Assembly: GCF_030219325.1 (NCBI RefSeq)
Contig: NZ_CP126625.1
Location: 856,857 to 920,856 of the forward strand
Reading direction: 5' to 3'
Length of the DNA: 64,000 nucleotides
From: Geothrix sp.
GTDB lineage: Bacteria > Acidobacteriota > Holophagae > Holophagales > Holophagaceae
Part shown: piece by piece, positions 7,960-36,903 of the stretch
Layout: every line of letters begins with the position of its first letter
Position numbering within the stretch: position 1 is the stretch's first letter
Position numbers and translations under genes: made by a program
Notes under the pieces: model-generated
What the model saw: the letters and a program-made list of their open reading frames with translations, nothing else
What the model was told of the DNA's origin: nothing
Database searches by the model: none

Positions 7960-10086
7960 GTGCCCGACAGCTCCGTCCAGACTGCGCTAGCCACCACCCT
8001 GACCCGGGAGCAGCGCGTCCGGCTCTATCGCACGATCTACGCCGCCCGCCGCATCGACGACAAGGAGATCACGGGCAAACGGCAGAACAAGGTCTTCTTC
8101 CAGATCAACGGCGTGGGCCACGAGGCGGTCCAGGCCGCAGCCTCCCTGGTGTTCCGCCCGGGCCATGACTGGTTCTTCTTCTACTATCGCGACCGGGCCC
8201 TGGCCTATGGTCTGGGCTATACGGCCAGGGAGATGTTCCTGGGCTCCGTGGGCGCCGTGGATGATCCCGCCAGCGGTGGCCGCCAGATGCCCAGCCACTG
8301 GGGCCACAAGGGCCTCAACATCTTCACCACCTCCAGCCCCACCGGCAGCCAGTTCCTGCAGGCCGTGGGCGCGGTCGAGGCGGTGGTGCGCGCCGAGCAG
8401 GGCGGCGTCTCGGAGCAGCTGGGCATCAAGGCCGACGAGGTGGCCCTGGTCACCACCGGCGACGGCACCTGCAGCCAGGGCGAGTTCTGGGAGGCCATCA
8501 GCAATGCCGTGAACCTGAAGGCGCCCGTGGTGTTCCTGGTGGAGGACAACGGCTATGCCATCAGCACCCCCAGCGAGGTGCAGTATCCCGGCGGCAATGT
8601 GGCGGCCCTGCTGCAGGGCTACGCGGAGCACGGCCTGTTGATCCTGGACGAGGTGGACGGCTGCGACCCCGTCGCCAGCTTTGAAGCCCTGAAGATCGCC
8701 GCCGAGCATGCCCGCACCCGCAAGGGGCCGGCCCTGGTGCGCGCCAAGGTGATCCGCCCCTACAGCCACTCGCTGTCCGATGACGAGCAGCTCTACAAGT
8801 CCAAGGCCCAGCGCGAGGCTGAGGCCCAGCGGGATCCTGTCCTCACCTACGCGAAGCAGCTGGTGACCTGGGGCGATCTCTCCGAGGCTCAGCTGCAGAT
8901 GCTGAAGGATGAGGTCCAGGCGGAGATCGACGCGGCCTGGGAGGATGCGGACGCCGCCCCCCGGCCCGAGCCCGGCAGCTACTACCGGCACCTCTACAGC
9001 GAGGAGGTCGATCCCACCTCCGCCGCCTTCGATACCGAGCACGCCCCGGGCGACCAGGAGGTCGGCAAGAAGACGATGCTCGACCTCATCAATGCCACGC
9101 TGAAACATGAGATGGCGCGGGATCCCCGCATCCTGGTCTTCGGCGAGGACGTGGCCGATGCCAGCCGCGAGGAGATCCTCGACGAGGTGAAGGGGAAGGG
9201 CGGCGTCTTCAAGACCACCCATGGCCTGCAGAAGCAGTTCGGCGCCCACCGCGTGTTCAACACGCCCCTGGCCGAGGCCACCATCGTGGGTCGCGGCATC
9301 GGCTTGGCTGCGCGGGGCTTCAAGCCCGTGGCGGAGATCCAGTTCTTCGACTACATCTGGCCGGCCATGCAGCAGCTGCGGGACGAGCTGGCCAACATCC
9401 GCTGGCGCTCCCACGGGGCCTTCAAGGCGCCCATGGTGATCCGCGTGCCCATCGCCGGCTACCTCATGGGCGGCGCCACCTACCACAGCCAGTGCGGCGA
9501 GAGCACCTTCACCCACATCCCGGGCCTGCGCGTGATCTGCCCCAGCAACGCCCTGGACGCGGCGGGCCTCCTGCGCACCGCCATCCGCTGCGACGATCCG
9601 GTGCTGTTCCTGGAGCCCAAGCACCTCTACCGGCAGACCCACAACAAGGGGAACGACCCCGGCCCCGACTTCATGATCCCCTTCGGCAAGGCGCGCACCG
9701 TGCGCGAGGGCGCCGACCTGTCCGTCATCACCTACGGCTGCACCGTACACCGGGCCGTGCAGGCCGCCCGCGAGGCCGAGAAGGAGGGGATCTCGGTCGA
9801 GATCATCGACCTGCGCTCCCTGAATCCCTACGACTGGGCGGCCATCGAACGCACCGTGAAGAAGACCCATCGCGTGATCGTGGCCCACGAGGACACCCTC
9901 AGCTGGGGCTATGGCAGCGAGATCGCGGCGCGCATCGCCGATGAGCTGTTCTTCCACCTCGACGCCCCCGTGCGCCGGGTGGCGGCCAAGGACACCTGGG
10001 TGGCCTACTACCCCGCCCTGGAGGACGAGATCCTGCCCCAGCCCAAGGACTTCCTCGAGGCCTACCGGAAGCTCATGGCGGTCTGA
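7960..10086 (+). CDS. 2-oxoacid dehydrogenase E1, alpha and beta subunits fused (branched-chain/pyruvate type)
   Basis: 708 aa. Residues about 15-345 are the thiamine-diphosphate-binding E1-alpha half, with the ThDP motif [17 protein letters not shown] ending VEDNGYA. Residues about 375-705 are the transketolase-like E1-beta half ([38 protein letters not shown]). The fused layout is known for some 2-oxoisovalerate-type E1 enzymes; the exact 2-oxoacid cannot be fixed from sequence. It uses ThDP to decarboxylate a 2-oxoacid and acylate the E2 lipoyl domain. E2 and E3 genes are not in the window. The start is GTG 7960, preceded by GAGAGGAG; a region of about 160 bp upstream is free of genes. Confidence 0.92.
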
Positions 10087-14855: not shown

Positions 14856-15968
14856 ATGAACCGCAAAACCGTCTTCTACATCGCCCTGCCCATCGCGGTG
14901 ATCGCCGGGGCCGCCACCTTCCACCGCAGCCAGCGCAACGATGAGCTGAGCCACCAGGCCACCGTGAAAGGCGAGGGCACGGTGGCCGTCACCCTGGTCA
15001 ACGTCCAGGAGCGCAGCTTCCGTCCCGCCGTGGCCTTCACCGGCACGATGCTGGCCGTGAACCGCGCTGAGCTCAAGGCCGAGGTCACTGGCCGCGTCAC
15101 CCGCGTGGCGGTGCAGGAGGGCGACACCGTTGCCGCGGGCGCCCTGCTCGGGGCCCAGGACGAGGACGACTACGTGCTGGGGCTGCAGGCCGCCGAGGCC
15201 CAGGTGGCTCAGGCCAAGGCCCAGGCCCTGCAGGCCCAGCGGGACAATGACCGTTCCGTGGCGCTGCTGGAGAAACGCAGCATCACCCGCCAGGCGGCCC
15301 AGCAGGCCGAGACCGCCTACAACGCCACCAAGGCCGCGGCTCAGGCCGCGGAGAGCAACCTGGGCCTGGCCCGCCTGCGTCTGAAGAAGGCCCGCCTGGT
15401 GGCGCCCTTCGCGGGCCAGGTGGCCCGCCGCATGGTGCAGCCCGGCGAGATGCTGAACCCCGGCCAGACCGCCTTCGAAGTGGTGGACAACCGCAAGCTG
15501 GAGATCCGCGCCGACCTGCCCACCGAGGCCATGGCCCAGGTGAAGGTGGGCCAGCGGGCCACCTTCCGCGCCATCGGCCTGGACCGCCTCGTGGAGGGCC
15601 GGGTCGCCCAGGTGAGCCCCAGCCTCTCCCAGGATGGCCGCACCCTGCGCGTCCGGGTCGAGGTCCCCAATCCCGACGGCCAGCTCAAGGGCGGGCTCTT
15701 CGTGGAAGGCGTGATCCTGGGTGAGGGCGAGACCAGGAGCGCGGCCCTGCCGGCCACCCTGCTGAAGCCCCAGGACCGCGACGCCGAGCTCTTCATCTCC
15801 GAACAGGGCGTGGCCGCCCGCCGCAAGGTGGTGCTGGGCGCGGAGCAGGACGGCTACCGACCGATCAGCGGCCTGGCCGTGGGCACCCAGGTCATCGACA
15901 GTGGCAAGGATCTCGTGGGCGTGGGCAGCCGCCTGCGCGTCTCCACGCCCGCCGCCGGGGGGAAGTGA
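14856..15968 (+). CDS. RND efflux periplasmic adaptor (membrane fusion protein)
   Basis: 370 aa from ATG 14856, with GGAG just upstream. An N-terminal membrane anchor (VFYIALPIAVIAGAATF) is followed by the biotinyl-lipoyl halves (AELKAEVTGRVTRVAVQEGDTV ... ARLVAPFAGQVARRMVQPGEML), an alpha-helical hairpin rich in Ala/Gln between them, and the beta-barrel and proximal domains (LEIRADLPTEAMAQVKVG). It bridges the inner-membrane pump and the TolC channel. It sits 26 nt after tolC and 3 nt before the permease gene. Confidence 0.93.
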   Translation: MNRKTVFYIALPIAVIAGAATFHRSQRNDELSHQATVKGEGTVAVTLVNVQERSFRPAVAFTGTMLAVNRAELKAEVTGRVTRVAVQEGDTVAAGALLGAQDEDDYVLGLQAAEAQVAQAKAQALQAQRDNDRSVALLEKRSITRQAAQQAETAYNATKAAAQAAESNLGLARLRLKKARLVAPFAGQVARRMVQPGEMLNPGQTAFEVVDNRKLEIRADLPTEAMAQVKVGQRATFRAIGLDRLVEGRVAQVSPSLSQDGRTLRVRVEVPNPDGQLKGGLFVEGVILGEGETRSAALPATLLKPQDRDAELFISEQGVAARRKVVLGAEQDGYRPISGLAVGTQVIDSGKDLVGVGSRLRVSTPAAGGK

Positions 15969-15971
15969 GCC

Positions 15972-18900
15972 ATGTTCCTGTCTGACCTCTCCATCCGCCG
16001 ACCCGTATTCACCGTCTGCATCATGCTGGCCCTGGTGGTGCTGGGCCTCTTCTCCGTGAAGAGCCTGGGCATCGACCAGTACCCCAACACGGACATCCCC
16101 ACCGTCACCGTCTCCGTCATCTACCCCGGCGCCAGCCCCGAGTCCGTCAAGCAGGACGTGGTGCGCAAGATCGAGGAGGCCGTCAACCCCATCGAGAAGA
16201 TCAAGGAGATCAGCTCCACCAGCCAGGAGGGCCTCGGCACCCTGGTGATCCAGTTCCAGCTGGGCCGCAACGTGGACAACGCGCTCAACGACGTGCGCAC
16301 CAAGATCGGCCAGATCCGGCGCGACCTCCCGAACAACATCGAGGAGCCCGTCATCTCCAAGTTCGACCCGGCCTCGCTGCCGGTGCTCTCCCTGGTGGTG
16401 CAGCCTGACGCGAAGCACCAGGGCATGAACGACCGCGAGCTCACCCGTGTCGCCGAGGACTTCCTCAAGCGCCGCATCGAGAACATCCCCGGCGTGGGCA
16501 AGGTGGAACCGGCGGGTGTCAGCACCCGCGAGATCCTCGTCCAGATCGATCCCCAGAAGCTCGAAGCCCAGGGCCTGGCCCTGGGGGCCGTGAAGAGCGC
16601 CCTGGCCAATGACACGCTGGCCATCCCCAGCGGCAACCTGCTCCAGGGCAGCCGCGAGGTCTCGGTCAAGGTGGACGCCAAGGCCCGGACCGTGGACGAC
16701 TTCAACCATGTGATCGTGGGCAACAAGGAAGGCCGGCCCATCGAGCTGCAGGAAGTGGCGAAGATCGTCGACGGCATCAAGGAGAAGCGCAGCCTGGCCC
16801 GCCTGGGCGGCAAGGACGTGGTCGCCCTGGAGATCCAGCGCCAGGTCGGCGGCAACACCGTGGCCATGGTCACCGCCGTGGAGAAGGCCCTCCACGAGCT
16901 GAAGCCCGAGCTGCAGCAGCAGGGCGTCGAGGTGGTCACCGCCAAGGACAACGCCCGCTTCATCATCAACAACGTGGAGGACGTGAACATCTCCATCTAC
17001 GTGGGCGGCCTGCTCACGGTGATCATCGTCTTCTACTTCCTGAAGAGCTGGCGCTCCACGCTCATCACCAGCCTCACCCTGCCCGTGTCCGTGATCTCCA
17101 CCTTCATCGTCATGCGGGCCCTGGACTTCACGCTGAACACCATGACCCTCATGGGCCTCAGCCTGGCCATCGGCATCCTCATCGACGACGCCATCGTGGT
17201 CCGCGAGAACATCACGCGGCACGCGGAGATGGGCAAAGACCACGTCACGGCGGCCCGGGAGGGCACGGCCGAGATCGGTCCCGCGGTCATCGCCACCACC
17301 CTGTCCATCCTGGCGGTGTTCGTGCCCGTGGCCTTCATGGGCGGCATCGTGGGCAAGTTCTTCTTCCCCTTCGGCATCGTCGTGGCCTTCGCCGTGGCGG
17401 TCTCGCTGTTCGTGAGCTTCACGCTGGACCCCATGCTCAGCGCCGTGTGGCCCGATCCCGAGCACGAGAAGAGCGCCGACGGCCACGTCCACTACCAGGG
17501 CCGCAACTGGATCATGCGCAGCGTGGAGGCCTTCGGCCGCGTGCTCGACCGCTGGGAGGCCCTATACAAGACGGCCATCGAATGGGCCTTGAATCACCGC
17601 TGGATCGTGATGCTTTCGGGCGCCGGGAGTTTTGTCCTCGCCATTATTCTCATCGGCCTGCTCGGCAACAACTTCATGCCCGACTTCGACCGGGGCGATT
17701 TGCAGGTGACCTTCAAGACGGAACCCGGTGCCAGCCTGAGCACCACCCGCGACAAGGCCCTGGCCCTGGAGACCACCATCAAGAACGTGCCCGGCGTGGA
17801 ACTCACCTACACCACCATCGGCACGGGCCTCAACGGCACCGTCAACTCCGGCGGCATCTACGTGAAGCTGAAGGAGGGGCGCCGCCCCAACCACGTGAAG
17901 ATCCGCCGCCAGATCCGCGAGGGCTTCCGCGCCGTGCCCGGCGTGGATGCCGCCGTGGGCCCCGTGAACGACTGGGGCATGGCCTTCCCCATCATGGTGG
18001 CCGTGCAGGCGCCGGAGCGGGATGCGGTCATCCAGGCGGTTCCCCTGGTGAAGGAGGCGCTGAAGAGCGTCCCCGGCGCCGTGGATGTCACCACCAGCCT
18101 GGACAGCGGCAAGCCGGAATTGCGGCTGGTCATCGATCGCAAGGCCGCCTCCGACCTGGGCGTGAGCCCGGCCCTGGTGGCCCAGATGGTGCGGCCCCTC
18201 GTGGATGGCGAGAAGGTGGCCAAGTACGAGGACGAGAAGGGCGAGCAGCGCGATGTGCGCGTCCGCCTCGAGGACCAGCAGCGGCGCTTCACCACCCAGC
18301 TGGCCAACATGACCGTGCAGAGTACCAAGGACCTGGGCGGCGGCAAGCATCCCCTGGTGCGCCTCAACCAGGTGGTGCGCTTCGAGGAGGGCCTCGCGCC
18401 CGCCAAGCTCCAGCGCCACGATCTGATGGAGGAAGTGGAGGTGAACGCCAACTTCGACGGCTCCACCCTGGGTGAAGTGAGCGCCGGCGCCGCCCAGAAG
18501 GTGGCGGAGCTGAAGGCCAGCGGCCAGCTGCCCGAAGGCGTCCGCGTGGAGTTCCTGGGCCAGACCCGGGACAGCAAGGAGACCGCCGGCTACATGGGCA
18601 CCTCGCTGCTGCTCGCGGTGTTCTTCATCTACTTCGTGCTGGCCAGCCAGTTCGAGAGCTTCAAGCTGCCCGTGGCCATCATGGCCAGCCTGCCGCTCTC
18701 CATGGTGGGCATGGTGCTCATGCTCCTCGTCACGGGCGACTCCATGTCCATGATGACGAGCATCGGCATGATCCTGCTCATGGGCCTGGTCACCAAGAAC
18801 GCCATCCTGCTGGTGGATCACGCCCTGCATCTGGAACGCGAGGAGGGCATCACCCGCCGCCAGGCCATCATCCGCGCGGGCACCGTGCGGCTGCGGCCCA

Positions 18901-25200: not shown

Positions 25201-25609
25201 GCTGGGGCGGCGCTGGATCGACCAGGCCAGCGAGCGCCTGGTGGCCTACAAGCGCATCTCCCGGCTGCGCGAGGAGAAGGACCTGGAGCTCTACCGCATG
25301 GACCTGGAGGATCGCTTCGGCCGCATTTCCGAAGACGATCCCGAGACCCTGCGCTTCTTCGAGCTGCTCAAGGTCAAGCTGCGGGCCCAGGTCCTGGCCG
25401 TCTCCGAAGTGGCCCTGGACAAGGGCCAGCTCAAGTTCCGCCTCAGCCCCCAGACGCCCCTGGACCCCGCCAAGCTCATGGCCTGGGTGGGCCGCACCAA
25501 GGGCGCCAGCCTCAGCCCCGACGGTGCCGTGCGCCTGCCCGTGCAGGGCACCGCCGACGGCCCCATTCTCCAGGCCCAGCGGGTGCTGGTGGAGTGGGCG
25601 GGGCTGTAG
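22205..25609 (+). CDS. mfd: transcription-repair coupling factor Mfd (3' end supplied by the integrated element)
   Basis: 1134 aa, normal Mfd length. The UvrB-like N-terminal part is followed by the RNA-polymerase-interacting domain (LKPGDRVVHLDHGIGEFVGF), the RecG-like ATPase with Walker A GDVGFGKTEVAMRAA, DEEQ box (IDEEQRFGVGHKEK), helicase motif ALSATPIPRTLHMSL and QLRGRVGRSDVPAYAYL, and the TRCF C-terminal domain. It displaces stalled RNA polymerase and recruits UvrABC. The last 368 nt (25242-25609) have a near copy at 36536-36903, and element DNA begins right after this stop. The present 3' end therefore most likely came with the element, keeping the protein intact. Confidence 0.97.
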   Translation: MNDTGHELRDLLRSTGPAGDLGAPGARLRWMSPGALALVLARWVGREGRPQTLWVDAPSEAEARILAQDLQALLPGAGVAHFPGFAGYAGGESSPPGMVLRERLSTLVGLLERRVQVLVTGPLTACEKLPHPTWFQKQKLELRKGAEVPRELLLETLIALGYRRTEMASAPGEFSSRGMVVDLWPDHLDQPLRLETFGDELERLSPFDPDSQRRTGEALETLTLYPRFEGDRGDGEALLAAVASRASLTQEPGDDLAFRRARLATHGHFPGEELFHPLLAQAKGQLVHWVPPCLRVRLDPAWEEALREAERTRIEDGLAMLRRGGVVCPDFEDRFLPTDPSRSTLLLTEWQSEATVPLAAQPVREFQGRLSDLADHLQDLALTGHRVFLAGSTPGMRDRFQEFIREHELPQAYGTEVGCRALHLSLSAGFHLKEPGLVIFTEREVFGRKAVQAAPKKSRSSAFLSDLRDLKPGDRVVHLDHGIGEFVGFATLTVGGEEQEVLQLRYADGGQLNVSLERADLMQRYTGAEGHLPPLDKLGGASWAKVKRRAKKAIRDMADELLKLYAQRKLEKGHAYPADGPDMAAFDTSFPFTLTPDQVEAIEAVKADLESPRPMDRLLVGDVGFGKTEVAMRAAAKVALEGKQVAVLCPTTVLCFQHFRTFRERFAGFPIRIEMLNRFVDATDQKRILQELGDGKIEIVVGTHQMLGAKVKFADLGLVVIDEEQRFGVGHKEKLKKLRLNVDQLALSATPIPRTLHMSLTGLREISLIETPPKDRLAIETVVAPWSDELVQTAIQFELRRGGQVYLVHNRVESIVSIAARVRELVPDARVGVGHGQLTDEGLEQVMLGFMEGRIDVLVATTIVENGLDVPNANTLIVHRADAFGLSQLYQLRGRVGRSDVPAYAYLMIPPKHEISEDARKRLQALEDFSELGSGFRVAAMDLELRGAGNLLGGEQSGHIHDIGFELYVKLLEETLSELQGQPSGTFEVKLDNLAPGAQLGRRWIDQASERLVAYKRISRLREEKDLELYRMDLEDRFGRISEDDPETLRFFELLKVKLRAQVLAVSEVALDKGQLKFRLSPQTPLDPAKLMAWVGRTKGASLSPDGAVRLPVQGTADGPILQAQRVLVEWAGL
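25242..25260 (+). repeat. candidate attL core (19-bp direct repeat)
   Basis: TGGCCTACAAGCGCATCTC within mfd codons for VAYKRIS. It is identical to 36536-36554. Immediately 5' the two sites differ (GG here, TC on the right), so identity begins exactly here. After this block the copies diverge at synonymous positions. Confidence 0.75.
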
Positions 25610-25644: not shown

Positions 25645-25663
25645 GCCTGTAACTGAATCTGTC
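25645..25663 (+). repeat. candidate left arm-type site of the element
   Basis: GCCTGTAACTGAATCTGTC matches GCCTGTAACCGAGACTGTC at 36454-36472 in 16 of 19 positions, same orientation. One lies about 385 bp inside the left core and the other about 64 bp inside the right core. It may be a recombinase arm site or an excisionase site; no binding evidence. Confidence 0.4.
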
Positions 25664-25747: not shown

Positions 25748-26788
25748 CTAGCTCACGAGGTTGATGGCCTCGCGCATCTCTTCCTCACGGGTCTCGATGT
25801 AGATCATCGTGGTCTCCACCTTTGAGTGCCGCATGAGCTTCTGGATGGTCGGCAGGGGCACCCCCCGCTTGTTGAGGATGTTGGCGAAGCTCGCCCGGAG
25901 GCGGTGATCAGTTAGGTTTGGAGGCAATCCGAGCGTCTTGGCCGCCCGCTTGATGTAACGGGTCGCCAGATGCCCGCAGCGAGGTTTGCCGCCCTTCCCG
26001 GGGCAGATCAGGCCGATAGGGTTTGGGCCCGGCATGAGCCGCTTGAACCACGGAATCATTGCCTCGGGGATCGGGATGACCGGGGCGTCACCGTTCTTCG
26101 TCTTGTCCGGGATGAACACCTTCTGGTCGAGTCGAAGGCCGGACCACTTCATCAATCTCGCCTCGTGGTTCCGCATGCCCATCAGGAGCTGGGCCCGGAC
26201 GAGAAAACTCGCCTGGAGATGGCCGTAAGCATCCACGGCCTCTAGGAAGCGGTCTAGATCGTCCACGGGCAACACAGGCCGGGCTTTCTTCTGCACCGGC
26301 ACCATCTGGATGCGGGGCTTCCGGTCGATCCACCCCTTCTCCAGGCCGAATCCCATCAGGGCGCTGATGTTGAGGGCGAGCCCGTTTGTGCCGGTTGCGG
26401 CGTGTGTCTCCAGGTAGCGGTTCAGCACCGTGTTGATCGCCGTAGCGTCGATCTTGGTGAGCTGGAGGCCCCCGAGGTAGGGCAGGACATGCTTCGTGAC
26501 CATCAGTTCGAGGCTTCGGGTGTATTTCCGGGTCCGTTGAGGTGCCCGCTCCTGCATCCAGGCATCGAAGCACTGCCGGAATGTGATGACCTTGGGGCGT
26601 TTGATGCCGACGCTTTCCAGGGCGAGACGCCCCTTCATGGCGTTGACGTAATCCCGGGCTTCGTTGACGCGGTAGCAGCCAGTGGAGCCCGTGTGGATCC
26701 GGCCCTGGTAGGAGAATCGATAGAGGTAGACGCCGCTCTCCGGGTGCTTCGCCAGGTTCTGGACGAAGTGCAGCTTTCCGTCCTCCAC
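25748..26788 (-). CDS. int: tyrosine recombinase (phage-type integrase)
   Basis: 346 aa from GTG 26788, chosen because AAGGAGG (26795-26801) sits 6 nt upstream; the frame stays open to ATG 26944, but that extension reads as non-coding proline/arginine-rich sequence. A core-binding region at about 70-165 (RKYTRSLELMVTKHVLPYLG) precedes the catalytic domain. Catalytic residues visible are Arg206, His295-x-x-Arg298 (DHRLRASFAN), His321 and nucleophile Tyr330 (HSKVETTMIYIET). It most likely catalyses integration at the mfd core repeat about 0.5 kb away. The gene ends toward the left junction, a common integrase placement. Confidence 0.93.
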   Translation of the reverse strand: MEDGKLHFVQNLAKHPESGVYLYRFSYQGRIHTGSTGCYRVNEARDYVNAMKGRLALESVGIKRPKVITFRQCFDAWMQERAPQRTRKYTRSLELMVTKHVLPYLGGLQLTKIDATAINTVLNRYLETHAATGTNGLALNISALMGFGLEKGWIDRKPRIQMVPVQKKARPVLPVDDLDRFLEAVDAYGHLQASFLVRAQLLMGMRNHEARLMKWSGLRLDQKVFIPDKTKNGDAPVIPIPEAMIPWFKRLMPGPNPIGLICPGKGGKPRCGHLATRYIKRAAKTLGLPPNLTDHRLRASFANILNKRGVPLPTIQKLMRHSKVETTMIYIETREEEMREAINLVS

Positions 26789-27312
26789 GCGACGCCTCCT
26801 TGGGCGCACCTTCCCCTGGTTTGCCGTTGAGGACACCGGAGGGTTCCACGGCCCCATGGTTGGACAATCATCCCCGAGCCCTGAAGGCTCGGAATCACCA
26901 TTCCTGTTGCCCAGGACGGCATTTTGGAGGAGGACGATTGGCATGGTGGGAAATTCAGCGGGGGTGTCCCGAGTAGGTTGCGAGGCGGGCTTTGGGATGC
27001 CCCGGTTTGGTCGGTCAAGCGGGTGACACCGCCGGGACCGAGAGAGGAAGTATCAATCTGGAAGTCGAAAAAGTTTTCCAGGATCCAGATTTTCCGAAAT
27101 TTGATGAATTTTAAATTCAGTCAGCCCGTGGAAAGGAGGCCGGCGCCAAGAGCCATCGGCACCGGCCTCCTCGCTTCGGTCTACCGTGGCTACCACTACA
27201 TGGATTGTGAGATCGTAAAAAATGGAGAAGTCGTTGCACTCGCAAGGCACATCGTAAATATCGGGTAGTTCTTCGGGCGTGAGAGTTTGAGGAATTGCCC
27301 AAAATAAGAAAG
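26789..27312. promoter_or_regulatory. AT-rich intergenic region between int and the DUF6602-type gene
   Basis: About 520 bp without a confident gene. It contains a perfect palindrome TGAATTTTAAATTCA (27105-27119) and a 7-bp inverted repeat ATCTGGA/TCCAGAT (27056-27062, 27084-27090), both plausible regulator sites. A possible 54-codon ORF lies at 27104-27268. The int side is GC-rich; AT content rises sharply from about 27050. Confidence 0.4.
27104..27268 (+). CDS. possible small protein, unknown
   Basis: A 54-codon frame beginning MNFKFSQPVERRPAPRAIG and ending with a stretch that reads like real protein (YRGYHYMDCEIVKNGEVVAL). No convincing ribosome site precedes the ATG and no homologue is recognised. 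It could be a genuine small cargo gene or the tail of a decayed one. Confidence 0.25.
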   Translation: MNFKFSQPVERRPAPRAIGTGLLASVYRGYHYMDCEIVKNGEVVALARHIVNIG

Positions 27313-28080
27313 ATGAGAGAAATGAACCAAGCAAAGGCTGCGTCGAAAATAGACGGGAAGAAATTCCTAAGGGAGGCGTTTGCCGCTGAACAGGCTGTAC
27401 TTGCTCTTCAGCTCGACTTATCAAGCAGATCCATCACACACAGTGGGGTGATGGGGGATGTCAACGAACAACATTTCATTGATGTGCTTCGCAAGTACTT
27501 GCCCATGCGCTATGAGGTTTCCCAGGGCATAGTGATTGACTCAAATGGATCCACAAGCGAGCAGATCGATATTGTTATTTTTGATAATCAGTACACACCC
27601 ACACTTCTTGACCAAAAGTCACACCGGTTCATCCCAGCTGAAGCGGTTTATTGTGTTCTTGAAGTAAAACCAACACTGAGCAAACCCTACCTTGATTATG
27701 CTGCCGCAAAGGCTCATTCGGTCAGGATTCTCGAACGAACAAGCGTTGCAATCCCGCATGCTGGTGGTGTGTACTCACCCAAGGAGCTATTCCCAATAAT
27801 CGCAGGCATAGTTTCTACCAAAGTAGATTGGACTGATGGCCTAATCGGAAGGCCCTTTACTGAGAACCTGGCAGCACTAGGCGATACACATACTCTTAAC
27901 TGCGGATTGGCCGTCTCGGATCGAGCTTTTGATACATTTACGGGAGATCTGACAATTAGCGAACCACAAGGATCGTTGGCATTTTTTATATTCCGCTTGA
28001 TTCAGCGATTGCAGGCACTCGGTACAGTACCTGCCGTCGATTGGAACAAATATGCCTCATTCTTGGGCAACGATTTCTGA
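27313..28080 (+). CDS. DUF6602-like protein with PD-(D/E)XK nuclease-like motifs
   Basis: About 255 aa. An early Glu in GDVNEQHFIDVLRKYLP, then EQIDIVIFDNQYTP and VLEVKPTLSK give the spaced E...D...E-x-K pattern of PD-(D/E)XK folds; the overall sequence resembles DUF6602. Such proteins occur in mobile and defence loci, but their activity is not established. The start is uncertain: ATG 27313, ATG 27322 and an upstream TTG 27295 are in frame, none with a strong ribosome site. GC is far below the host. It is convergent with the 240-aa gene. Confidence 0.65.
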   Translation: MREMNQAKAASKIDGKKFLREAFAAEQAVLALQLDLSSRSITHSGVMGDVNEQHFIDVLRKYLPMRYEVSQGIVIDSNGSTSEQIDIVIFDNQYTPTLLDQKSHRFIPAEAVYCVLEVKPTLSKPYLDYAAAKAHSVRILERTSVAIPHAGGVYSPKELFPIIAGIVSTKVDWTDGLIGRPFTENLAALGDTHTLNCGLAVSDRAFDTFTGDLTISEPQGSLAFFIFRLIQRLQALGTVPAVDWNKYASFLGNDF

Positions 28081-28197: not shown

Positions 28198-28920
28198 TCA
28201 ACGGTTCGGCCCCAATGCTGACTCTTCCCTTGCTGCTTCGATTTTCGGTGTGATCCGTTTGAAGAAGTCCTGCATTTCACGGGCAAAACGCTTGTTTGAG
28301 CACCAAATGAGCTTGTGTTTACCCCCAGGTGTCACGATCTTAAATCCGAAACCGATTGAAGTCGGGAGATGCTTTTGATAGCTGAATAATGAGAATCCAT
28401 GGCCATCGGGTAGGTCGAAAAGACCTTCAAGGTACTCAAGCTTCCCAAGTCGTTCGAAAATCTTCGCCTCATCTAGTTTGAGGCGCCCATTCTCTATCTT
28501 GGTGAGGTCAACGATGGCCGTCCTATCGAAAAAGAGCCCGGGCTCTGCACCAATGTGATTGCGGGCCATCCACCCAATTCGAAGGGGACGAAATAGAGAC
28601 CTTAGGAGAAGTGACATCTCACCAACGATGGATTCTGTAAGCGGGCCGAGCTTGCTGTGTGAGATGGCGAACAGGGTCTCATGTTCTTCATGCCCACCCT
28701 TGACTCTCCGAGTACGGTGTACATCCACTTGTTTCGTAACAGGGCCGAAGTGAAGAGAGATATGTTCTTGAGATCCCTTCTGGGCAAAGAAAATTTTGTC
28801 ATCAAGGAAAGTGACGATAGCTGACCCAAGATCGAGTTTTTTCACCCCCATGGAAAGAGCAGTTGTCTCATCCATTCCTGCCTCTGCCTCTGATTGGATC
28901 ACATGGATCTGTGTTCCCAT
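28198..28920 (-). CDS. hypothetical 240-aa element protein
   Basis: Not recognised. No signal peptide or membrane segment. The sequence is of mixed alpha/beta character with several Phe/Gly-rich strands (GHGFSLFSYQ; SIGFGFKIVTPGGKHKLIWCS) and a charged C-terminal helix (REMQDFFKRITPKIEAAREE). AGGAAA upstream supports ATG 28920. Low GC like its neighbours. It is convergent with the DUF6602-like gene and downstream of the XRE regulator on the same strand, separated from it by the repeat cluster at 28982-29052. A cargo or defence role is only a guess. Confidence 0.55.
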   Translation of the reverse strand: MGTQIHVIQSEAEAGMDETTALSMGVKKLDLGSAIVTFLDDKIFFAQKGSQEHISLHFGPVTKQVDVHRTRRVKGGHEEHETLFAISHSKLGPLTESIVGEMSLLLRSLFRPLRIGWMARNHIGAEPGLFFDRTAIVDLTKIENGRLKLDEAKIFERLGKLEYLEGLFDLPDGHGFSLFSYQKHLPTSIGFGFKIVTPGGKHKLIWCSNKRFAREMQDFFKRITPKIEAAREESALGPNR

Positions 28921-28981
28921 TACAAGGGTTTCCTGAGAACATTAGAAATCTAATTCCAATATTTTAAATAATATTTAATCC

Positions 28982-29052
28982 CTGGGTAATGACGGTAATG
29001 GGTAATGCCTTGCAGATTACCCGGCTTACTGACCGGACCCAGCATTACCCAG
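28982..29052. repeat. cluster of GGTAATG repeats with a 10-bp inverted repeat
   Basis: GGTAATG occurs three times in direct orientation (28985-28991, 28994-29000, 29001-29007). Inverted copies GATTACCC (29015-29022) and CATTACCC (29043-29050) follow. CTGGGTAATG (28982-28991) and CATTACCCAG (29043-29052) form a perfect 10-bp inverted repeat. The cluster lies between the 240-aa gene start and the XRE gene end. It could be the XRE operator, an excisionase site or an iteron-like origin. Confidence 0.7.
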
Positions 29053-29116
29053 TACCAACGACATCAGTCCTGGTCGGATCTCTCTGGACCATTCGTAGCT
29101 CTGGGTATCATGACCA

Positions 29117-29142
29117 ACTGGACCGGCGGACCCCGGTCCAGT
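29117..29142. terminator. 10-bp perfect hairpin downstream of the XRE gene
   Basis: ACTGGACCGG (29117-29126) pairs with CCGGTCCAGT (29133-29142) around a 6-nt loop. On the minus strand it lies 44 nt beyond the XRE stop, so termination is likely, although no T-run follows on either strand. Confidence 0.45.
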
Positions 29143-29185
29143 GAGACCTCCTCTGAGTGATTCTCCTACGAAGGGCGGGATCTAG

Positions 29186-29939: not shown

Positions 29940-32900
29940 ATGTCGCGCCAATTTCTTCTATCGATGCTAATCGCCCTGTCGTTGGGGGGAGGCAGCCTGA
30001 AAGCTCAGAGCTACCAGACTTCCTTCTCAGACGTGAAATTCGACCGAGCAAAAGGACCGGCCACGATTCACGCAGGTCTGGAGGTCGATGCCGCAACGGG
30101 TGCCGCAAGTATGAACATTCCGTTCGGCCCAGGGATCGGTGAGAGAGGCTTGAAATTTACGCCAACTCTATCAATGCGGATTGGACCCCAGATGGGCATC
30201 AGTTCTGCTGAGGAAAACATTATTGTCGTACCGGCGGCCTTCTCGAACGCCGCCATTTGGGGCCTCACAACAATCGAAACGTTGTACCAGCGTAGCTTTG
30301 GATCGGCATCGTTTTCTCCTGGAACGCTAACGCTAGGCACCATGGTGAGTACTTTTGACCGAAAGCCAACAACTTACAGCCTACCCAATGGTGGTGGTGG
30401 ACGAGTGCTGGGGCAAGTCCCAGCAGGTATTGACTCAACTAATATCAACACTTTGCTGAGAAAATTTGGATTTAGTGCTACAGACACCGTCGGTTTCCTT
30501 CCGGGAAGGACCGATCGTCCTAGCAAAGCAGCGTTCATCCAGATGGGATCGGACAGCAGTCTAATTGTTGGCCTTCGGGTGGACGGTCCATCAACTGCTC
30601 TCACCGATGAAGTCCGAGACGATATTCAGCAGTATCCAACCTCCAACCTGTATCAATGGGATTTCCCCCGGCGGGTGGCGGTCATTCATGGGGAAGTGGC
30701 CTACGAATTCCATTATGTGCGTCATACCTACATGACCAGGCATATTCCATACCTGACCATTTCTGAAAAGACACAACTCTACAGTGGCCACTACGTCATC
30801 ACGAAGATTCGCAACAAACTTGGGGAGTCGATTGACTTTAGCTACGATTCCGATGGAAGTGGCTACACTGCGACCTGGAGTGTAAATCCCTCTGTGAAGA
30901 TCCGTGTTCAAGCAGTGGGGTCGGTGGCGGTTTCGAGTCAGCCCAGCTTGAACAATAGCAACTTTCCATTGGCTAGTGCCACTCGTATTCGAGTGTCCTA
31001 TCAAGGGATTAGCCAACCGGTATCGACTTTCCTGCTGGACTTTTCTGATCCGACACTTGGGACTGCCCCGACGCTCTTTGGTCCCGGCGGACCGGATAGC
31101 GCAGCGGCGAATAGTCCGAATGGGATTATCGATTGGGATTGGCAGGGCTATGGTGCAGCACTCGAATCCATGCAGCCGCTTCGGATTTATAAGGAGGCAA
31201 CGCTTGAGGAAATCCGATTCACCTGGGGAGTGGGCCCCACCTTTTCCTGGGACAACTGGTTATCCCTTACGAGGGGCCCAACCGTCCTATCGAGTGTCGC
31301 GTTCCCAACTCGAGATGTCACTCTAACCTGGGAGCCCTATCGTTATCGAGCCAACTACAACCCAGAGGGGTGGGGTGGTGTTGCCTCAAGTTCTCTGCCT
31401 GGCCGCCCAGCGGTGGCCTATGGGGTCATTCAGACGCTTGATTCCGGTGGGCCTCTTTCCCGCCAAACCACGCATCATCGAGTTGTTCCTATGTCGAATT
31501 GGAACAATCTGCCAGTAGGACAGACTATTGCTGATCAATGGACTGATACCACTTTCTATGATGCCGTCACACAGCCTGATGGATCTGTGAGTGTCCACCG
31601 ATTCGTTTCACCACCCTCAATCAATGCCCTGACTGGTGCGGATGGGATGCAGAATCTAGCATTCATCAAGACCCTGGAGCGAGAAGTTCGTTACTACCAA
31701 CCGGGTGCTGATTGGCAGTCTGACCTCGCCGTGACCACTCCCGCGTCCAGTTCTGCCTACAAGTGGGTCGTGAAGGACCGATTTGATGTTCGGACGCCTG
31801 GGTCTACCAATGGCGGTCTCGGCAACCAGTCAGTTCCCTATCCCACCCGAACTCGCACCTGGGAAAAAGAGAATCAGATCCTCACCATTCAGGAGAGTTC
31901 TGGGTGGGATGAGGCTGCCTTTGGTTGGAAGGCCAGCCACACAACCACTTCAATCGTAGCCAACCCCAATTTGGCAATGGATTACCTCAGCCTAGCCCAG
32001 GCTGGTCAGGCTTACTCCCCCTATCCAGCACCACTGGGGGTCTATCGAAAAACCGAAAAGACCTTTGAACCAAACATCGCTGATTGGATTATCTCCCGGG
32101 AAAAATCAGAACAATCCACCACCGTCGAAGACAACACTGGGTTCCTGGCCAGCGGGGGGACCCTACCGGACGCCCAGCCATTGGTTACCAAAACCTTTAA
32201 CCCGAACGTCAATCGTGTGGATTCAGTAGCCGTGAGTAATTCGGGTGCTCCAACGGTTACAACAGATTTCACCTTCATCGGCACTACTGGGGTCGCGGCA
32301 ATCGAAATCCAGAGCGCCTTCCTCAACTCTACCGGGCTTGGCCTAAGTGGACAATTTGGTGTGAGTAGCTACAGCTACGATGCCAATGGCTATCTAAATG
32401 CTATTAGCCAGAAACCAGATGCCTCGAAAACCCTAACGGTGAGCCAGGAATCCGATGAATTGGGCCGACCCAAGACTCAGACAGATCTGAATGGCACCAT
32501 TAAGACCTATACCTGGGATCAGGGCGGGCGCCTTTCAGGGATTTCATCGTCCGATGGAGATGAACCGATCAGCATCGTCTATAACGATACGGACCATCTT
32601 GGGATAACCGTCACCCAGGGCCTCCGGATTTTAGAATACCGTTACAACGCTTTTGGACAGCTCATTCTCGAACGTCGAACGGCCCAGGATGGGACCAAAT
32701 CTCATCGTATTCATGGCTACGATTGCGTTGGCAGACCAACCGGCGAAACAGTCTGGCTTCTTGGGGATGGCGCTGCTCACGAGGGGGAATGGCTCAATGC
32801 GGCCCTCACGCGTTCCAACACCTCAACAACAGTCGTCCCAGAACGAACCACCTGCAAGAAATGGGGTCTTGACGATGCAGGGAACGCAGTTTGTCTCACA

Positions 32901-35609
32901 TGGCAGACCATACCCGCCAGCACCACCACAGTCACCACGGCGGCACTATACCTCGGCGCGGCGACCAAATACGACGGCCGGGGCCGCGCCATTTGGACCC
33001 AGGATGCCAATGGTATTCAGACCACCACCGACTATTTCGGCCCTGGAAACTTGCCACCGGGAGTCGCCTCCTATATTGGACCCATCACGAGGGTGACCGT
33101 TGGGACTACTCAGGTGAAGTGGTTTGAAAGCGACAGCGTTGGTCGATTTGTGCGGATGATCACTCCCGTAACACGGTACGTGGATCCGATGAACAGCCCC
33201 AGCAAGTCCGTCGTGAACCTTCGCACAGAGTACCGTTACGACACAGGAGGCCGGGTCAAAGATGTCCGGCAGTATGACGAGGCCAACCGAACCCAAACTC
33301 GAACCTGGGCCTACAATCGCCTCGGCTGGCTGGAGAGCTTGGAACAACCAGAAAGCGGAATCACCTCCTACAGTGGATTCACGGTTGCAGGTAAGCCTAC
33401 GGTAACAAGCTACGCCGGGCGCGTCGTCAGAATGTCACCTGACTGGATGGGTCGTCCTCTGAACGTAGCTGCTGACGATGGCAGTGTGACGCAGGCTTTC
33501 GTCTACGACACGGCTACAGGTGGGAAGGGTCGATTAGCAAGTAGCACAGACGGCGCCGTGACGACCGAATATAACTATAGTGGTCAGGGAAATAGGCTGA
33601 GTAGCCTATCCACCACAACTCTGGTTCAAGGCGCGAATCAAACATTTACCCAGACCTACATCCATGACACATCCGGAAATAGAACAGGAGGCAACACCAG
33701 TCATGGGGCATGGACACAGACCTACCATTCACTAACGGGTTTGCCCAATATTCTGACCTATGGGACAGGGAATGTGGCCAGCACGCCATGGGTTTACTAC
33801 GACTCGGTAAGTTGGGCCTTGAAGTCCATTGCTTATGGAAATGGAGCTGCAAGCAACTTTGACTACGATCCTGATCAGGCAAGATTGAAGGAGATGAAGC
33901 ACCTCGATGGTCAGGCCGTGCTTCAGGCGCACTGGGGATTCAAGTACGACGATGTCGGGAACATGGTGACAGAATTTGATAAGACACGCCCAGACGGGGC
34001 CGGATCATACGCTTTTGACCAGTTTGGGTATGACGAACTTAATCGCTTGATCTCGGCAGTGGTGCAGTCCTCCAGTTACGGGGAGCAGCTGCAGGAATTT
34101 GATTACGACGCGTTTGGCAATCGGATCTCCAGCAACATTCGCCGGGTCACTTCATGGCAGGGCGTAAAGGGAGCATCTACTGCATACGTGACAAGCTCTG
34201 GCCTATTGAGTGCCCAGGGGACTCAGGTGGTCAATGCGACATTTAGCCAGGGCAGTACAGCCTTGATGCAGAACCGCCTTCCCAATGTAACATCCACAGG
34301 TGTTCCAACCGGCGCAACCTACGATCTTCAGGGGAATTTGCTCACGCTCTATGAAAAGCCAACCAGTGTCAACCCAGTGCTGCTCACCATGACCTATGAC
34401 GCGCTCGGAAGGGTGCTAACTGTTTCCAGTAGCAAAACAGGGCTCACAGAGAAGTACAAATACACCGCTGAGGGCTTACGGACGGTGGTGGAGGAGTACA
34501 ACGCTTCCACCCTGCAGAAGACCCGAGTAAATATCTACAACGATTCTCGACAGCTCGTGGCGCAGTACGAGAAAGCACCTGCCGGGGTGCTCACTTGGAA
34601 GCGCGATATTCTCTACTTGGGCACTAGGGAGGCCGCCGAGATCGATGCCGCTGGCATGCATGTCACCCAAGTGGACCATCTCGGCAGCCCAAGGGTGATT
34701 ACTGGACCTACCGGGGCCGTTGAGACCAAACAGAAGTACCTGCCATTTGGAGAACTCCTCGAGCAGTCAGGGGCGTTCAGAACGGCTAAGGGGTACACAA
34801 ATCACGAACAAACTGACACAAGCGGGCTGGTTTACATGCAGGCTCGGTTCTACGTGCCTTGGTTTGGGCGCTTTGCCAGCCCCGATCCTGCACGAGATCA
34901 GCATTTTGATAACGGTCAGAGCTGGAACATATACAGCTATGTGAGGAACAACCCTGTTATGAGCACGGACCCCACTGGGATGGAGGAAGAGAAAAAGGAG
35001 AAAAATGTCAACAGTGGTGCGGTTGGTCCAAATGATCGACCGTATATTGCTGCAGGAGAACCACCTCCAGCAACTCCGGCGCAAACAAAATTGATTTCAG
35101 ATAAATTGACAGAATATACAAAAAAATCTTCAACATTATCCAACGCAAGAAATTACTTAGGAACGAAACCAGATGGGGATCTAAATCTCATTGTAATCAA
35201 TGATCCAAAATCAAATGTAATTGCTAATTATGACAATAATGCTTGGACGATGACAGTTAACATAGCAAATGTAATGACTGATGGACTGGTTAATGATGCA
35301 GTTCTGTCAAATGCACTCGGGCATGAATACCGCCATGCGGAGGCAGACGCCCTTGCGGTCTCTTCGGAGAGCCGCACAGTTGATTTACGTGATTCGGGAG
35401 GTGGGTTACGTAATTCAACCATGACCAGCAGCTCAGACTACAGTCGCTTTAGAAATGAAGCTGCCCGGGATGGTGCCGCAGCTTCGAATACGAATTTGTC
35501 TCCAAGATCTAGAAATCAAGCATTAAAGCGATATTGGGATAACCCTATAGAGATAGATGCTCGTTGCGCAGGTGCAAAGGTTGCTTCGGAGGTGGGTAAT
35601 GCTAAGTAG
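29940..35609 (+). CDS. exported Rhs-repeat protein with C-terminal HExxH metallopeptidase-like toxin domain
   Basis: 1889 aa. A Sec signal peptide (MSRQFLLSMLIALSLGGG) starts the protein. Tyr-Asp/Rhs repeats fill the middle (YSYDANGYLNAI, YDALGRVLTVSS, FDYDAFGNRISS). The Rhs-associated core runs at about 1571-1677 (DHLGSPRVITGPTGAVE, YLPFGE, MQARFYVPWFGRFASPDP, NPVMSTDPTGM). The variable C-terminal 212 residues contain His1795-Glu-Tyr-Arg-His1799 followed by Ala-Glu-Ala-Asp, and near the end NPIEIDARCAG, the zinc-metallopeptidase layout. Base composition drops to AT-rich just after DPTGM, as in polymorphic toxins whose tips are exchanged. Delivery route and target are unknown; no T6SS gene is near. 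Confidence 0.85.
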   Translation: MSRQFLLSMLIALSLGGGSLKAQSYQTSFSDVKFDRAKGPATIHAGLEVDAATGAASMNIPFGPGIGERGLKFTPTLSMRIGPQMGISSAEENIIVVPAAFSNAAIWGLTTIETLYQRSFGSASFSPGTLTLGTMVSTFDRKPTTYSLPNGGGGRVLGQVPAGIDSTNINTLLRKFGFSATDTVGFLPGRTDRPSKAAFIQMGSDSSLIVGLRVDGPSTALTDEVRDDIQQYPTSNLYQWDFPRRVAVIHGEVAYEFHYVRHTYMTRHIPYLTISEKTQLYSGHYVITKIRNKLGESIDFSYDSDGSGYTATWSVNPSVKIRVQAVGSVAVSSQPSLNNSNFPLASATRIRVSYQGISQPVSTFLLDFSDPTLGTAPTLFGPGGPDSAAANSPNGIIDWDWQGYGAALESMQPLRIYKEATLEEIRFTWGVGPTFSWDNWLSLTRGPTVLSSVAFPTRDVTLTWEPYRYRANYNPEGWGGVASSSLPGRPAVAYGVIQTLDSGGPLSRQTTHHRVVPMSNWNNLPVGQTIADQWTDTTFYDAVTQPDGSVSVHRFVSPPSINALTGADGMQNLAFIKTLEREVRYYQPGADWQSDLAVTTPASSSAYKWVVKDRFDVRTPGSTNGGLGNQSVPYPTRTRTWEKENQILTIQESSGWDEAAFGWKASHTTTSIVANPNLAMDYLSLAQAGQAYSPYPAPLGVYRKTEKTFEPNIADWIISREKSEQSTTVEDNTGFLASGGTLPDAQPLVTKTFNPNVNRVDSVAVSNSGAPTVTTDFTFIGTTGVAAIEIQSAFLNSTGLGLSGQFGVSSYSYDANGYLNAISQKPDASKTLTVSQESDELGRPKTQTDLNGTIKTYTWDQGGRLSGISSSDGDEPISIVYNDTDHLGITVTQGLRILEYRYNAFGQLILERRTAQDGTKSHRIHGYDCVGRPTGETVWLLGDGAAHEGEWLNAALTRSNTSTTVVPERTTCKKWGLDDAGNAVCLTWQTIPASTTTVTTAALYLGAATKYDGRGRAIWTQDANGIQTTTDYFGPGNLPPGVASYIGPITRVTVGTTQVKWFESDSVGRFVRMITPVTRYVDPMNSPSKSVVNLRTEYRYDTGGRVKDVRQYDEANRTQTRTWAYNRLGWLESLEQPESGITSYSGFTVAGKPTVTSYAGRVVRMSPDWMGRPLNVAADDGSVTQAFVYDTATGGKGRLASSTDGAVTTEYNYSGQGNRLSSLSTTTLVQGANQTFTQTYIHDTSGNRTGGNTSHGAWTQTYHSLTGLPNILTYGTGNVASTPWVYYDSVSWALKSIAYGNGAASNFDYDPDQARLKEMKHLDGQAVLQAHWGFKYDDVGNMVTEFDKTRPDGAGSYAFDQFGYDELNRLISAVVQSSSYGEQLQEFDYDAFGNRISSNIRRVTSWQGVKGASTAYVTSSGLLSAQGTQVVNATFSQGSTALMQNRLPNVTSTGVPTGATYDLQGNLLTLYEKPTSVNPVLLTMTYDALGRVLTVSSSKTGLTEKYKYTAEGLRTVVEEYNASTLQKTRVNIYNDSRQLVAQYEKAPAGVLTWKRDILYLGTREAAEIDAAGMHVTQVDHLGSPRVITGPTGAVETKQKYLPFGELLEQSGAFRTAKGYTNHEQTDTSGLVYMQARFYVPWFGRFASPDPARDQHFDNGQSWNIYSYVRNNPVMSTDPTGMEEEKKEKNVNSGAVGPNDRPYIAAGEPPPATPAQTKLISDKLTEYTKKSSTLSNARNYLGTKPDGDLNLIVINDPKSNVIANYDNNAWTMTVNIANVMTDGLVNDAVLSNALGHEYRHAEADALAVSSESRTVDLRDSGGGLRNSTMTSSSDYSRFRNEAARDGAAASNTNLSPRSRNQALKRYWDNPIEIDARCAGAKVASEVGNAK

Positions 35610-36190: not shown

Positions 36191-36453
36191 CGTGGTCACG
36201 CTCCTGCGTGCGTTCCCCCAGGAAAGGCTGCGGCTGGTGCATCAGCGTGTGCTTGCGTGCGCATGTGAGGCAGGACGAAGCGACTTCGGCGTGACCTTGC
36301 GCGTCGTTGCCCAAAGGCTCGGTTAGCCCGACTCTCCCCGGCGTATGTCTTTGCCTCCGAGTAGGAACCCTGATGAGTTCTCTGGAATTTGCTCAAGCTA
36401 GGAAATGCCGGTCATTGGTAGGGTTCCGAATCAAGGTTTGGCCTAGAGGTTGC

Positions 36454-36472
36454 GCCTGTAACCGAGACTGTC
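36454..36472 (+). repeat. candidate right arm-type site of the element
   Basis: GCCTGTAACCGAGACTGTC, 16 of 19 identical to 25645-25663 in the same orientation. See the left site for interpretation. Confidence 0.4.
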
Positions 36473-36535: not shown

Positions 36536-36554
36536 TGGCCTACAAGCGCATCTC
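36536..36554 (+). repeat. candidate attR core (19-bp direct repeat)
   Basis: TGGCCTACAAGCGCATCTC, identical to 25242-25260. Upstream lies element DNA, downstream the displaced mfd end. Confidence 0.75.
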
Positions 36555-36903
36555 GCGCCTCCGCGAGGAGAAGGACCTGGAGCTCTACCGCATGGACCTG
36601 GAGGACCGCTTCGGTCGCATTTCCGAGGACGATCCCGAGACCCTGCGCTTCTTCGAGCTGCTCAAGGTGAAGCTGCGGGCCCAGCACCTGGCCGTCTCCG
36701 AAGTGGCCCTGGACAAGGGCCAGCTGAAGTTTCGCCTCAGCCCCCAAACGCCCCTGGATCCGGCGAAGCTCATGGCCTGGGTGGGCCGCACCAAGGGCGC
36801 CAGCCTCAGCCCCGACGGCGCCGTGCGGCTGCCCGTGCAGGGCACCGCCGACGGCCCCATCCTCCAAGCCCAGCGGGTGCTGGTGGAGTGGGCGGGGCTG
36901 TAG
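36536..36903 (+). pseudogene. mfd: displaced 3' end of mfd (fragment)
   Basis: 368 nt matching 25242-25609 with 19 mismatches (about 95% identity) and no indel, both ending at the same TAG. Seventeen differences are silent; two fall in one codon and change Val to His (AQVLA versus AQHLA). It begins at the core repeat with no upstream promoter or helicase part, so it cannot make Mfd. The next host gene starts its 3' end 10 nt later, which suggests this is the native chromosomal end left behind by integration. A 103-aa internal frame from ATG 36592 is open but has no reason to be expressed. Confidence 0.9.

Follow-up and report, generated by a model that had tools for sequence, protein, structure and literature searches.

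What is a dense cluster of short direct and inverted repeats doing between two genes of an integrative island in Geothrix sp.? All coordinates given here are positions in the window, the whole 64-kb stretch of DNA that was analysed, which belongs to a genome of 3.73 Mb on a single contig. The island, of the integrase type and ~10.9 kb long, adjoins the 3′ end of mfd; within it, the cluster occupies an intergenic gap (28921–29185) of exactly 265 bp, reaching from the start of a 240-aa gene (28920) to the stop codon of an XRE-type regulator gene (29186). Because both flanking genes are encoded on the minus strand, the gap is situated 3′ of xre instead of in the xre promoter, and it is upstream of the 240-aa gene. 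The start of the latter is 62 bp from the triplet boxes, and the cluster could thus be its upstream control region. The features of the island are listed in Table 1.

Table 1. Features of the island and of the repeat cluster (window coordinates)
Feature	Position	Strand	Remarks
mfd 3′ end, left copy (end of intact mfd)	25242–25609	+	
att-like core GCCTGTAACTGAATCTGTC, integrase end	25645–25663	+	
Tyrosine integrase, defines island family	25748–26944	-	
240-aa gene, no function recognised	28198–28920	-	
AT-rich tract adjoining triplet	28937–28981		82% A+T across 45 bp
a-site, core triplet CTG-GGTAATG-AC-GGTAATG-GGTAATG	28982–29007	+	phasing 9 and 7 bp; recurs in G. fermentans (two copies) and G. 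limicola (one copy)
Inverted partner half: GATTACCC (29015), GCATTACCCAGTACC (29042–29056)	29015–29056	-	
Perfect 10-bp hairpin ACTGGACCGG/CCGGTCCAGT	29117–29142		arms 29117–29126 and 29133–29142, 6-nt loop
XRE-type regulator, 154 aa	29186–29650	-	C-terminal HTH_3 (PF01381)
d-site CTAGGAAATGCCGGTCATTGGTAGGG	36398–36423	+	19/26 to a-site, best match in island outside cluster
att-like core GCCTGTAACCGAGACTGTC, far end	36454–36472	+	direct repeat of GCCTGTAACTGAATCTGTC, 17/19
mfd 3′ end, partial right copy	36536–36903	+	94.8% identity to left copy over 368 bp

Repeat content of the intergenic gap

The three direct GGTAATG units described in the original prediction were recovered with starts at 28985, 28994 and 29001. 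Its two inverted copies held in part: CATTACC at 29043 is exact, but GATTACC at 29015 agrees at only 6 of 7 positions. The 10-bp perfect inverted repeat that it named (CTGGGTAATG at 28982–28991 and CATTACCCAG at 29043–29052) is present in the 265-bp gap, as is the 10-bp perfect hairpin, which begins 65 bp past 29052, and a longer inverted pair of 15 nt matches at 93% (28994–29008 and 29042–29056). The cluster can be described as three head-to-tail boxes with the consensus GGTMATG, phased by 9 and 7 bp, with an AT tract on one side and inverted boxes on the other.

GGTAATG occurs seven times on the two strands of the window, four of these copies falling inside 65 bp, and some 7-mer with four non-overlapping copies per 80 bp arose in 5 of 40 windows simulated with an order-2 Markov model. 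By itself, the cluster is only modestly unusual against chance, and its significance comes from recurrence in sister islands, not from repeat density alone. While the simulated clusters would speak for a chance origin of the repeats in the gap, the sister copies contradict it, and we regard it as extremely improbable.

Several simple identities of the site were rejected. An intrinsic terminator at the hairpin was discarded, since no T run follows it and a terminator scan found none there. A conserved structured RNA was likewise dropped: the site gave folding z-scores of -2.8 in the xre sense and -1.7 on the other strand, but folding was not conserved at the sister sites. Rfam yielded no match at E ≤ 1 in 12.5 kb around the site. 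The cluster is not the attachment site proper, as the att-like cores lie at 25645 and 36454. A promoter search was uninformative, with one sigma-70 promoter found beside the boxes against 0.8 expected.

The island and its relatives in Geothrix

Besides the integrase, the window island has genes for a NucC-like nuclease and an Rhs-repeat protein, together with the 240-aa and XRE genes. Among the island proteins scanned, no HTH regulator was recognised apart from the XRE protein, whose N-terminal part is coiled-coil-like and has weak Pfam matches only; the window island has no other recognisable DNA-binding protein except the integrase. The excisionase family had no match among the five window-island proteins scanned with PHROGs. 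The NucC-like protein (27295–28080) matches DUF6602 in Pfam and has a PADLOC NucC-type score of 2.8e-88; its gene is convergent with the 240-aa gene, and no partner gene was recognised nearby. The very large Rhs-repeat gene (29940–35609) is divergent to the XRE gene, and so is the Rhs-repeat gene of the G. limicola island (locus L058, 1727–6976), with one ORF in between.

Same-genus relatives of the window genome include Geothrix fermentans (G007) and G. limicola (G009). Integrase relatives with 65–83% identity over most of the protein were found in these two genomes and in G025, G044 and G067, with partial ones elsewhere, and the far end of the island is conserved at seven places in 5 of the 77 family genomes, the window included. 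Four sister islands (G007, G009, G025 and G067) have a VapE-like replication protein, and those of G007, G009 and G025 share a divergent HTH gene and a conserved 180-aa gene. The window island has none of these three genes; the 180-aa gene has no relative in the window genome and VapE none there at E ≤ 1e-30. No relative of the 240-aa gene was found in plasmids, and none of the XRE protein, the 180-aa gene or the integrase in viral contigs. The literature searched on Geothrix islands and Acidobacteriota satellites, screened by title, contained no description of this island family.

The G. limicola island (L058, contig C8) encodes a DRT8-like reverse transcriptase and an ApeA-like protein (8348–9907 and 14978–16498), and the island family therefore looks like a defence-gene carrier. 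Sister islands (L126, L138 and L137) are inserted at mfd or at a second gene, presumably SprT-like. In the window and in G. limicola, partial copies of the target gene border the island outside the att-like cores.

Strong copies of the array in sister islands

We searched the 77 genomes for the pattern TTACCCATTACCGNCATTACCCAG with up to three mismatches and obtained five places in four genomes: the window and G. fermentans contig C29 without mismatch, and G. fermentans contig C27, G001 and G057 with three, the G057 match falling in apparent coding sequence. The 23-bp triplet with its 9/7-bp phasing and the AT tract recurs twice in G. fermentans and once in G. limicola. When a degenerate 24-bp pattern admitting the G. 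limicola copy was run on genomes of 84,980 species, only three stretches were found, all in Geothrix, and none was found in viral contigs, both being collections that may omit records of the window genome. A profile built from the four sites gave strong matches (E ≤ 3.5e-9) in 3 of 77 genomes, and all of them were its own four training sites; the best match after these had an E-value of 0.0185. Leave-one-out scores were 23.8–30.8, whereas 40 random 20-kb sequences scored no higher than 19.0.

The AT-rich tract lies on the same side of the boxes at every strong site (4/4), and inverted halves are also found in G. fermentans C29 and, weakly, in G. limicola. In three of the four strong copies (the window, G. 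fermentans C29 and G. limicola) the stop codon of an XRE homologue directly precedes the site, while the fourth, in G. fermentans C27, lies between two other genes. The sites in G. fermentans C29 and G. limicola are located between convergent genes. No 10-bp counterpart of the hairpin was seen in the stretches examined beside three sister sites, so the hairpin is probably not part of the conserved element. The cluster is a real, conserved, element-specific and intergenic feature of Geothrix integrative islands. Lack of conservation in sister elements, which was to count against the original prediction, was not seen, as the cluster recurs in related islands.

Weaker copies and the attachment arm

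Weaker boxes with the same 9/7 phasing (b-sites) were found upstream of the 180-aa gene in G. limicola, G. fermentans and G025, while two of the five homologues of this gene (G042 and G044) have lost them. The four-site profile, whose training set did not include them, weakly picked two b-sites, with per-genome E-values of 0.064 in G025 and 0.126 in G. limicola; matches of a later profile to b- and c-sites are partly circular, those sites having been in that profile. In G. limicola and G025, the interval that separates gene o137 from vapE contains boxes of a GGAAAC variant.

Outside the cluster, the window island matches the 26-bp box string best at the d-site; this lies in the conserved arm of the far attachment end, with ~30 bp between it and the att-like core there, and the GGTCAT around 36398 is invariant in all seven far ends. 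Shuffled strings reached at least 19/26 anywhere in 1 of 60 cases, and in 0 of 40 in a second set. The sister islands ranked their second matches differently. In G. limicola, a site near vapE scored highest (19), followed by the one upstream of the 180-aa gene (18), and the far-arm copy was outside the six best; the leading one in G. fermentans C27 was an internal site; and in C29 the arm copy (16/26) came behind two 17/26 matches, one of which was the site's own inverted half. For three of the four sets, the second-match scores did not exceed those of shuffled strings, and individually scores of this size are close to the shuffled range. The arm copy suggests that a protein binding the array may also take part in integration or excision. 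To this extent the excisionase binding offered in the original prediction gains indirect support, since the best second match to the cluster in the window island falls in the conserved attachment arm at 36398.

Putative function of the array

The most likely function of the cluster, as inferred from the patterns described above, is that of an operator-like array, possibly linked to recombination. More fully stated, it would be an element-specific array of putative protein-binding boxes of Geothrix integrative islands, bound by an oligomer and regulating neighbouring genes and possibly recombination, a reading that we hold to be evenly balanced between right and wrong. An island-borne DNA-binding protein would occupy the boxes as an oligomer and, once bound, would control transcription of the genes alongside; the same protein may also, like Apl and Cox, have a part in integrating or excising the element. 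The candidates for this protein in the window island are the adjacent XRE protein and the integrase. Single-strand folding with DNA parameters gave z-scores of -3.5, -5.1, -0.5 and +2.0 at the four strong sites and is not conserved, and the site is therefore read as protein-bound duplex DNA. Several points tell against this reading: the spacing of 9 and 7 bp is not one helical turn, the sites between convergent genes (G. fermentans C29 and G. limicola) give an operator no obvious promoter, 27 of 30 XRE loci are without the site despite a conserved recognition helix, and both the modest second-match scores and the loss of boxes at two of five homologues of the 180-aa gene count on the same side.

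Arm-type sites of tyrosine integrases, such as those of the lambda P′ arm, offer one comparison. The far-end copy resembles P′-type sites in being a head-to-tail triplet ~30 bp from an att-like core, whereas the distance from the cluster itself to the att-like cores is 3.3 kb at the integrase end and 7.4 kb at the far end. The 7-bp head-to-tail boxes beside an AT tract are similar to the direct-repeat operators of recombination directionality factors that regulate transcription as well. Among these factors, Apl of coliphage 186 binds both att and pR-pL, and Apl, P2 Cox and P4 Vis use short direct-repeat boxes at the attachment site and in internal control regions (PMC7498355), an arrangement that the island may share. 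The boxes of Apl are 6 bp long at 10–11-bp spacing, whereas those of the island are 7 bp long at 9 and 7 bp, with inverted copies; the array thus departs from a spacing of one helical turn (10–11 bp), and we do not claim that it belongs to the Apl/Cox type. For boxes at both the attachment site and an internal region, the window has its 19/26 match in the far arm, a modest score, and the arm was not leading in the sister sets. No Apl-, Cox- or Vis-like protein was identified in the islands. A directionality factor of an ICE is the subject of PMC11963761.

Alternative explanations

The main rival, possible but less probable than the reading above, is that the cluster is a plain operator through which the neighbouring XRE regulator would control the 240-aa gene, with no role in recombination. 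The position of the XRE protein as the only recognised HTH regulator, the boxes starting 62 bp upstream of the 240-aa gene and the joint retention of XRE gene and site in three islands with otherwise differing cargo are all in its favour. Cro/CI proteins usually have a dyad as operator, however, which head-to-tail 7-bp boxes do not resemble. XRE homologues are present in 48 of the 77 family genomes, yet a strong site was found at only 3 of the 30 XRE loci scanned, although the recognition helix and the HTH are conserved at the site-less loci; the three site-bearing genes are not a single clade. For 29 of 30 homologues, the upstream 500 bp contained no exact GGTAATG on either strand, the remaining one having a single inverted copy, and by-eye comparison showed no shared box motif upstream of 31 homologues. 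The position of the site between convergent genes in two sister islands also counts against a plain operator, as does G. fermentans C27, which has the site but no XRE gene on the fetched part of the contig. The XRE operator proposed in the original prediction is favoured by the XRE gene beside three of four strong sites but weakened by the location of these sites 3′ of xre and by an HTH kept at site-less loci (27 of 30 fetched). A further reading, in which the boxes of this satellite-like island family, with their unusual 9/7 phasing, would be sites of a dual-role directionality factor and regulator, namely the coiled-coil XRE protein, jointly controlling excision and expression of anti-phage cargo (NucC-like, DRT8-like and ApeA-like), appears quite unlikely to us.

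Also improbable is an iteron-type site at which the excised island would start replication, as its main or an accessory origin, and to which the VapE-type replication protein of full-length sisters would bind, with the window copy a leftover or served in trans. The boxes abut an AT-rich tract at all four strong sites, four sister islands have the VapE-like protein, the GGAAAC variant clusters lie between o137 and vapE, and the word GGGTAATGCC occurs upstream of vapE in G. fermentans and G067. PICI and SaPI origins, like the island, have iteron-like words beside an AT-rich tract, and some sister islands combine a VapE-like protein with a tyrosine integrase. According to PMC6092414, however, the origins of PICIs lie directly 3′ of the initiator gene and have one iteron set on either side of their AT-rich region. 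No replication initiator was recognised on the window island, its iterons lie mainly on one side, with only an 8-nt CCCATTAC match at 28916 on the other, and in four islands the DNA 3′ of vapE showed no box array. There are also several clusters per island, and a DnaA-box word with one mismatch is present singly at two strong sites and absent from the other two. The iteron-like origin of the original prediction is disfavoured because a replication gene is missing from the island and a VapE-type relative, at the threshold given above, from its genome. We consider it very unlikely that the cluster is a functionless relic of a small inserted sequence, MITE-like or a transposon end. Some copies do have CTGGG...CCGAG-like inverted-repeat ends, copies occupy varied intergenic places, and an ORF of transposase-like appearance neighbours the variant copy in G025; but the copies share no interior, the one-sided AT tract and the 9/7 phasing are conserved, and only four strong copies are known, all in one island family.

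The array provides a concrete cis-element for a defence-gene-carrying island family in Acidobacteriota and would allow one to ask whether a single small regulator ties island excision to defence-gene expression. As a plain operator, it would be an ordinary regulatory site.

Other repeats in the sister islands

A second dispersed repeat of ~37 bp lies beside the site in G. fermentans C29 (L056, near 3370–3470) and occurs twice after vapE in G. limicola (L126, 6548–6703). A pattern for it matched 0 places in the 77 genomes, the pattern being ill-set since the two known copies differ in length. In G. fermentans (L057, near 11900) and G. limicola (L058, near 12090), a palindrome like TATCGGATWCCGATA was seen close to where the second HTH gene starts; it is located between this gene and the 180-aa gene and may be the second HTH regulator's own operator.
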